A stretch of DNA of 25,324 nt. Origin: a virus. The position numbers and the translations under genes were made by a program. The notes under the pieces are model-generated. The model searched no databases. It was not told the DNA's origin and saw only the letters and a list, made by a program, of their open reading frames with translations. How positions within the stretch are numbered: position 1 is the stretch's first letter; each line of letters opens with the position of its first letter. The stretch is from positions 1 to 25,324 of the IMG/VR virus record IMGVR_UViG_3300008107_000359; one strand, 5' to 3'. Positions 2,371 through 3,655 of the stretch are shown piece by piece.

Positions 2371-2570
2371 TCGAGGCCAGCGAGTTAAACATAGCCCAGA
2401 TCATCGAGGCCAACAAGCTTCACATTCAAGGCCGCTCGGAGTTTATCTTTTCCAACGTCAGGCATCTTGAGGATCGCTACACGATCAGGATTAACAAGGT
2501 CAGCAAAAAGAGTAAATCCAGTACGATAAAAGAGTACGTTAACGGAAAAATAGTTTATAAGAAGCGTTGA
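2367..2570 (+). CDS. Small hypothetical phage protein (67 aa)
   Basis: A 67-residue protein, MIEASELNIAQIIEANKLHI..., whose C-terminal half is strongly basic (RINKVSKKSKSSTIKEYVNGKIVYKKR). It is the last gene of the coupled small-gene run. Its stop at 2568-2570 overlaps the predicted -33 element of the next promoter. No family is recognised; the basic tail would suit nucleic-acid binding, which is inference only. Confidence 0.65.
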   Translation: MIEASELNIAQIIEANKLHIQGRSEFIFSNVRHLEDRYTIRINKVSKKSKSSTIKEYVNGKIVYKKR

Positions 2571-2596: not shown

Positions 2597-2602
2597 TACT
2601 CA

Positions 2603-2709
2603 CTTTAAGATACTAAAATTTATGCCTGTTGCAGAGGCGTTTACAACCAAAACTAAAGACCCTTGTGGGGAAGAGCTGCAACCTCGACTCCGCAAGGGTT
2701 TTCTATTGT
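2603..2709 (+). ncRNA. Structured 5' leader RNA with complementary (kissing) hairpin loops
   Basis: Two hairpins are visible. Hairpin 1 pairs 2622-2627 with 2635-2640 (one G-U) around the 7-nt loop GTTGCAG (2628-2634). Hairpin 2 pairs 2659-2668 with 2690-2699 (10 bp, one G-U), has an internal loop, then a GAG/CTC inner stem (2673-2675/2683-2685) presenting the 7-nt loop CTGCAAC (2676-2682). The two loops are perfectly complementary, so a 7-bp kissing interaction is possible. Hairpin 2 is followed by TTTTCT, so it could also act as a weak terminator or attenuator. The ATG of the next gene comes 10 bases after hairpin 2. A 33-codon frame (2622-2723) runs through the leader and could be a leader peptide. 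The structure is seen; the regulatory role is inferred. Confidence 0.5.
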
Positions 2710-2962: not shown

Positions 2963-3655
2963 ATGGCAAAAAGATTCACCGATACCGAGAAGTGGAAAGA
3001 TGAATGGTGGGGATCATTGCCTAATGATTACCGAATGATTTGGCTATACTTAGTTGATAGTTGTTCAATTGCTGGAATATGGAAGAAAGATTTTCGCGGC
3101 TTAAACTTCAACTGCAACACAAATATTTCAGAAAAAGAATTTAAAGAGGTATTTGGATCGCGTCTAATTGACAAGGGTAATTTCTTTTTTATTCCAAAGT
3201 TTCTTCGTTTCCAATGCCCAAAAGGCCTAAATTCAAATAAGCCGGCAATCCTTTCAATTGTAAAAGAGATCGAACAAAACAATTTAACAGTAATGGTTCA
3301 GGAATCATTAGGTAATGATTTTTTAATCATTAAAGACAAAGGAAAGGGAACAGACAAAGGAAAGGGAGAAGGAAAGGACAAAGGAAAAGACACGCCAGAA
3401 GTTTACATTGAGGTTAACGGAGAGGTGATCACCGACCCAATGCGCATGCTGGAATATTACGAAATTCAATTGAATGGTATGCAGTCTGAATTTGATAATC
3501 TTGCATGGCGACCATTGGTTAGTGTATGGCTAAAACAGCATGTCGGAGAGGCTTTCAATGACGCTATGCACGTAAAGAACAGCTTTAAAAAGTTCTACAT
3601 GTTTTATAAACCGGAAAAAGTACAAACCAAAAGAAAACTAGCATTTGATTTATGA
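2963..3655 (+). CDS. Replication initiator-like / helix-turn-helix phage protein (230 aa)
   Basis: The start at ATG 2963 (MAKRFTDTEKWKDEWWGSLP...) lies one base after the previous stop; an ATG at 2879 would overlap that gene. The N-terminal module (residues 1-120, with WKDEWW..L...YR..WLYL.D....AGIW) is the form found at the front of many Bacteroidota phage replication proteins. A Lys/Gly/Asp repeat linker follows at about residues 125-143 (KDKGKGTDKGKGEGKDKGKD), then a C-terminal region that may bind a partner (WRPLVSVWLKQHVGEAF...). It probably recruits the replication machinery, by analogy with lambda O or DnaD-like proteins. The linker DNA carries direct repeats that could be iterons. No catalytic motif is seen, so the initiator role rests on family pattern and neighbours. 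Confidence 0.6.
   Translation: MAKRFTDTEKWKDEWWGSLPNDYRMIWLYLVDSCSIAGIWKKDFRGLNFNCNTNISEKEFKEVFGSRLIDKGNFFFIPKFLRFQCPKGLNSNKPAILSIVKEIEQNNLTVMVQESLGNDFLIIKDKGKGTDKGKGEGKDKGKDTPEVYIEVNGEVITDPMRMLEYYEIQLNGMQSEFDNLAWRPLVSVWLKQHVGEAFNDAMHVKNSFKKFYMFYKPEKVQTKRKLAFDL
3303..3390 (+). repeat. AT-rich inverted repeats and GACAAAGGAAAGGGA direct repeats inside the initiator-like gene
   Basis: AATCATTA occurs at 3303-3310 and 3325-3332, with its reverse complement TAATGATT between them at 3313-3320 (8-bp stem, TTTT loop on the right). Immediately after, GACAAAGGAAAGGGA occurs exactly at 3335-3349 and 3353-3367 (18-bp step), with a degenerate third copy at 3377-3390. The layout, AT-rich dyad next to direct repeats within an initiator gene, recalls the lambda origin in gene O. 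The repeats also encode a low-complexity linker, so they may simply be a coding effect. Confidence 0.5.

Follow-up and report, generated by a model that had tools for sequence, protein, structure and literature searches.

A phage transcript leader with two perfectly complementary hairpin loops, a candidate kissing attenuator with counterparts in other phages

Why should a phage place two hairpins with perfectly complementary loops directly in front of a gene, and is their complementarity more than chance? The question is raised by a 25,324-nucleotide stretch of viral DNA (IMG/VR record IMGVR_UViG_3300008107_000359, positions 1 to 25,324; the window), in which hairpin 1 (hp1) and hairpin 2 (hp2) occupy the interval between a TATGTTTG promoter and the ATG at position 2710. 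A sequence-only reading had noticed two hairpins with fully complementary seven-nucleotide loops and had proposed that the leader switches between a kissing fold and an attenuating hairpin to control replication genes. The loop pair, GTTGCAG/CTGCAAC, is present as described.

The promoter, which had been called good, bears closer inspection. The -7 box TATGTTTG (2589-2596, + strand) matches perfectly the TAnnTTTG that, together with TTTG near -33, constitutes the Bacteroidota promoter (PMC7366714), and the close relative L002 has the same box; TTG at 2567-2569 (+) is a candidate -33 element, judged by its sequence and by the -33 TTTG motif of Bacteroides (PMC7366714). Transcription is predicted to start at about 2600-2604. 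The stem of hp1 (2622-2640, +; pair probabilities 0.78-1.0), which is identical in L002, has six pairs, one of them T.G, and closes exactly around the loop GTTGCAG (seqA, 2628-2634). A predicted single-stranded, A-rich linker (2641-2655, +), whose counterparts in other members of the class described below are A/U-rich, leads to the terminator-like hp2 (2656-2702, +). In the predicted folds hp2 consists of 15 contiguous pairs (2656-2670 with 2688-2702), an AA/GA internal loop and a 3-bp inner stem (2673-2675 with 2683-2685) that exposes CTGCAAC (seqB, 2676-2682). The hairpin had been recognized earlier but drawn too short, with 10 bp from 2659 to 2699; accordingly, the ATG lies ten bases past the stem as drawn and seven past the full stem. 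Both loops are on the + strand, 48 nucleotides apart, and can form seven perfect Watson-Crick pairs, the complementarity ending exactly at both loop boundaries. The predicted fold of the leader has -34.2 kcal/mol (z = -3.6), with pair probabilities of about 0.7 to 1.0 in the two stems.

At the foot of hp2 stands the U-run TTTTCT (2699-2705, +; U count 6/8 in our scan). With a 15-bp stem followed by 6/8 T, in a leader before the ATG at 2710, hp2 has the layout of an intrinsic terminator, and U-run and position support the earlier suggestion of an attenuator-like hairpin; the U-run is modest, which counts against the attenuator reading. In the predicted fold TACTAAAAT (2611-2619) pairs with the gene start (about 2717-2726) once the coding sequence is included, and the fold is shifted. 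This long-range pairing is absent in L002 and was ruled out as part of the element.

Kissing hairpins as such are not rare. In 5.9 Mb of strands from related phage contigs there were 75 distinct pairs against about 70 (67-78) after dinucleotide shuffling, and two hairpins with 7/7 kissing loops within 90 nucleotides are expected roughly 0.6 times per 25-kb window, which is the shuffle rate. Because such pairs are equally frequent in shuffled sequence, the pair in the window needs independent support, and its significance comes from its position and from conservation in other phages.

The gene behind the leader (2710-2961, +) encodes an 83-amino-acid protein of the MAYFSNGSEG family with conserved cysteines, which has 17 relatives in viral contigs and no match in Pfam or PHROGs. 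In L002 the downstream protein is 95% identical and the leader nearly the same, one G.U pair of hp2 being replaced by A-U. In L004 the protein is 77% identical and the leader is of unrelated sequence, with a promoter-like box followed by two hairpins; the loop of the first, GTGGAACT, and that of the terminator-like second, AGTTCCAC, are both altered together and are still perfectly complementary. Partner loops of the seqA/seqB type covary also in L092, L106 and others; variation of the loops with compensation, which the sequence-only reading had named as its test, was found in L004 and about 25 other leaders. The RNA does not go with the MAYFSNGSEG gene as such, because a leader of this kind is missing immediately upstream of most relatives of that gene (L003, L005-L018 and others). 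Behind the other leader of L004 lies a gene (L004:1991-2386) whose relatives occur in Streptomyces, Gordonia and Sinorhizobium phages and are without exception hypothetical proteins.

About 25 further leaders share a common plan: promoter, 5' element, terminator-like hairpin with complementary loop, U-run and start codon. A descriptor scan, which proceeds from TAnnTTTG to a terminator hairpin and from there to the longest complement between leader and loop, retrieved a second RNA of L004 (GGTCAAG/CTTGACC), L092 and L106 (GTGCGA/TCGCAC), and L005, L062 and L063. The second L004 RNA, L092 and L106 are probably homologous, because they have short sequences in common, namely a GAAAGGATC hairpin, a AAAACTTTAA linker and a GGnGGC...GCCAAACTC inner loop; their loops differ between L004 and L092/L106, yet stay complementary. 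A search with the pattern GAAAGGATC...AAAACTTTAA gave one further member, L106. A second RNA of this contig (L106:1040-1140) carries the inner motif of its sister RNA (GGG-GGM-GGC / GCC-AAA-CTC) with the strands apparently swapped, hinting that the internal loop itself may matter.

The remaining members have no sequence likeness: L007, L079, L094 (minus strand), L186 (minus), L189, L202 (9/9), L274 (minus, 11/11), L278 (minus), L290 (minus, 7/7), L305 (three leaders), L311 (minus, 7/7), L332 and L351 (7/7). In L189, for example, GTTAT-GAGCAAG-ATAAC stands with CACAG-CTTGCTC-CTGTG. By eye, a weaker, wobble-containing case was seen in L091 before a replication-like ORF. Among the terminators that precede ATGs in these phages, some lack a complement (e.g. 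L365 at 21067 and L366 at 9865). In L305 (IMGVR_UViG_3300028610_000533) at least one such leader follows a sigma-70-like promoter (TTGACA...TATACT), and the element therefore may not be limited to Bacteroidota phages. Exact patterns were of little use: that of hp1 (TGCCTGTTGCAGAGGC) had 26 matches, all due to chance except L002, and that of hp2 gave 45 chance matches and no member in 11.3 million genome contigs. Host genomes are no source of members either, because relatives of TerL are rare among the 396 Bacteroidota genomes searched.

Since the members have too little sequence in common to be aligned meaningfully, we used permutation tests rather than a covariance model. For each terminator-like hairpin standing just before an ATG, the 75 nucleotides in front of it were searched for the longest Watson-Crick complement to its apical loop, and this was scored (1.5 per G-C and 1 per A-T pair) against permuted loops. 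In the discovery set, with a U-run of at least 7, a score of at least 8 was reached by 8/10 hairpins versus 1.0 expected. Newly fetched contig parts, held out from discovery, gave 5/11 versus 0.98, a number attained in 0/60 permutations; the sets are small, and several hold-out pieces share contigs with discovery loci. When all data with a downstream ATG were taken, the count was 12/20 versus 2.45 at U 7-8 and 6/34 versus 2.75 at U = 6 (4 versus 0.65 for scores of at least 9), and at lower U complementarity was near chance. Hairpins without an ATG behind them were at chance level except for a slight excess at U 7-8 (7/59 versus 2.6). The kiss is thus tied to terminator-like hairpins, because the enrichment appears only where a strong U-run and a downstream ATG come together.

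The same rule applied to nine cultured Bacteroidota phages gave 4/16 versus 1.03 expected (p about 0.01). The loop pairs are CGGGCAGG/CCTGCCCG in Flavobacterium phage 11b, GTGCAG/CTGCAC in Croceibacter phage P2559S, CCGCCAA/TTGGCGG before the Rha regulator of Bacteroides phage B40-8, and CTCTCACAA/TTGTGAGAG in Cellulophaga phage phi13:2, here before gp006, the gene ahead of gp005, which is annotated as a DNA replication protein. Two relatives of B40-8 have an identical hp1, one of them (Bacteroides phage BF766P1) with one loop pair lost. By eye, the genes behind the leaders of L062, L274 (minus), L278 (minus) and L311 (minus) have HNH/homing endonuclease-like starts. The proposed link to replication genes holds in part, as similar leaders precede HNH endonuclease-like, Rha-regulator and unknown genes too. 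In the window itself, the next ORF (2963-3655, +; 230 amino acids), earlier called replication initiator-like, could not be confirmed as such: it has no Pfam or PHROGs match, and a pattern search found no relatives.

Do the complementary stretches meet as loops? The upstream element had been picked solely by its match to the terminator loop, and in 8/21 leaders versus 0.47 expected it is closed by a stem of its own, which often begins exactly at the edge of the complement. This geometry fits a predicted loop-loop kissing rather than linear pairing; in L079, L278 and L305 there is no clear hp1 around seqA. Contigs with two or three such RNAs have different loop codes (L004:1876-1990 and L004:2905-3000; L106:1073 and L106:3329; L274; L305) that do not cross-pair, with 2-4 nucleotides matching across versus 6-11 within. 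Such orthogonal codes favour recognition of self, as self-pairing predicts, which covers pairing within one molecule and between two copies of the same RNA alike. L278 has the loop complement a third time on its minus strand (2916-2970), where ACACGTTAC immediately precedes the start codon of an HNH-like gene, as with seqA/seqC in phage P4. As a general feature a third copy near the start codon was ruled out, a strong downstream copy being found only there (1/54).

The best reading, which we hold with moderate confidence, is a transcription-attenuator leader with a built-in loop-loop contact, because the kiss is linked to the U-run and the start codon. Transcripts of the gene at 2710 would have positions 2600-2709 as their 5' leader, in which the loops of hp1 and the terminator-like hp2 would pair to give a compact kissing-hairpin RNA, followed by the U-run and then by the start codon. 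RNA polymerase coming from the TATGTTTG promoter would often stop at hp2; the contact, made in cis, would set the efficiency of hp2 by stabilization or timing, and the downstream gene would be expressed at a limited or regulated level. Besides the modest U-run, the terminators that lack a complement, the members with no clear hp1 and the lost loop pair of BF766P1 weigh against this reading. Across the phages the loops are complementary, covary and are restricted to terminator-like hairpins abutting start codons, within folds that are predicted; that hp2 terminates, that the contact is made in cis and in which direction it acts is what we infer. The contact probably adjusts hp2 rather than taking its place, because full-loop kissing fits both hairpins and no antiterminator complementary to the 5' arm of hp2 was found in the leader, the strongest pairing of the leader with that arm being weak and rich in wobbles (score 4.5). 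For the same reason the proposed alternation of a kissing fold with an attenuating hairpin finds no support, as kissing spares both hairpins.

An alternative that we regard as possible, if unlikely, is control in trans between copies of the same RNA: the terminated leader would be a small antisense-like RNA that pairs with the nascent leader of another phage copy and silences the gene, in an RNA-only feedback or immunity circuit like those of P4 CI RNA or plasmid attenuators. Fully complementary loops of 6-11 nucleotides would join two copies just as well, every RNA carries a code of its own, and P4 CI RNA governs replication genes by premature termination (PMC4825925); at low copy, however, intramolecular pairing should beat pairing in trans, and the rarity of P4-like third copies speaks against it. 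A further reading, which strikes us as rather doubtful, is that individual genes each own a 'self-addressed' kissing attenuator whose terminated fragment recognizes its own nascent leader by a private loop code; this would be RNA-only, gene-specific autoregulation in swappable promoter-RNA-gene cassettes, widespread in phages.

The hairpin might also act on translation or processing, hp2 blocking the ribosome, being cut by RNase III or protecting the 5' end, with the kiss merely stabilizing it and the U-run being no terminator. Bacteroidota are not known to rely on Shine-Dalgarno pairing, the stems are long and near-perfect, and in most members the hairpin abuts the start codon; we nevertheless judge this to be quite unlikely, as the enrichment of the kiss needs the U-run, and hairpins before an ATG that have no strong U-run are at chance level or marginal. 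Improbable in our view is an independent small RNA, equipped with a promoter and a terminator of its own, to which the gene behind would be a neighbour and not a target. This is the architecture of intergenic small RNAs in Bacteroides (PMC7366714), and there is a weak, sub-threshold likeness to the suhB/mmgR RNA (E = 0.006, 23.1 bits versus a cut-off of 41), but in one member after another a start codon stands close behind the U-run, and enrichment is slight or absent at terminators that have no ATG nearby (at U of at least 7 the small excess given above, otherwise chance). Least of all do we believe in chance complementarity in an ordinary terminator between operons: the genome-wide shuffle rate speaks for it; against it stand the covariation seen at the orthologous position of L004 and the permutation tests, two of them on hold-outs.

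How does the element compare with known systems? In pT181 attenuators a terminator in the leader works together with a kissing antisense RNA and an antiterminator (PMC4878617). As in the repC leader of pT181, an intrinsic terminator would lie just upstream of the gene and a 5' hairpin would act via loop-loop contact (PMC4878617). In pT181, however, the 5' hairpin conceals an antiterminator that matches the terminator arm, and its kissing partner is a separate antisense RNA, whereas here the 5' hairpin complements the terminator loop of the same RNA and no antiterminator was found. The P4 CI RNA pairs with leader sequences (seqA, seqB, seqC) and thereby halts the transcription of replication genes; the system shares with our element the short complementary stretches, the untranslated phage leader and, if hp2 acts as we propose, premature termination, in P4 before replication genes (PMC4825925). 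It differs in that a second target copy (seqC) is not general here and that the loops here belong to two adjacent hairpins of one RNA. The CI RNA is a processed, stable, short RNA acting in trans. From P4 itself our descriptor retrieved nothing convincing of this kind. Neither the P4 nor the pT181 description includes pairing of a terminator loop with a hairpin in the same leader.

The analogy drawn earlier to RNAI/RNAII of ColE1, whose loops have seven nucleotides with all bases pairing, stands for the geometry of the fully complementary loops and fails for the mechanism, as both loops here lie in one transcript of the same strand, not in two opposite antisense RNAs, and no primer function is indicated. 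No known riboswitch had been recognized in the leader, and a search of Rfam agrees: neither the window nor any of seven related loci contains a match that reaches the gathering threshold. The best hit was the suhB/mmgR small RNA (RF00519), known from Alphaproteobacteria, which likewise has a 5' hairpin, a single-stranded linker and a terminator hairpin, with a score below threshold. In the open-access literature we found no description of such an RNA. The leaders point to a putative RNA switch, apparently undescribed and common to unrelated phages.

If this is true, they represent a new type of phage gene-control element, one easily missed since its sequence is hardly conserved and only plan and loop complementarity are kept. 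It may answer how Bacteroidota phages with long same-strand gene blocks separate genes in level or time, and it would provide naturally occurring orthogonal attenuators, coded by their loops, such as synthetic biologists have sought to construct. Direct testing is possible in cultured phages with known hosts (B40-8, phi13:2, 11b and P2559S).

The PeSL of T4-type phages are cassettes of a promoter plus a stem-loop between phage genes that apparently shuffle between phages; to our knowledge they have been described without loop-loop complementarity. Similar shuffling is seen in two related phage contigs, L062 (2211-2340) and L063 (1269-1420), where an identical promoter and upstream flank are followed by different leader RNAs, each with its own matching loops, and different genes, which looks like an exchange of RNA-plus-gene cassettes.
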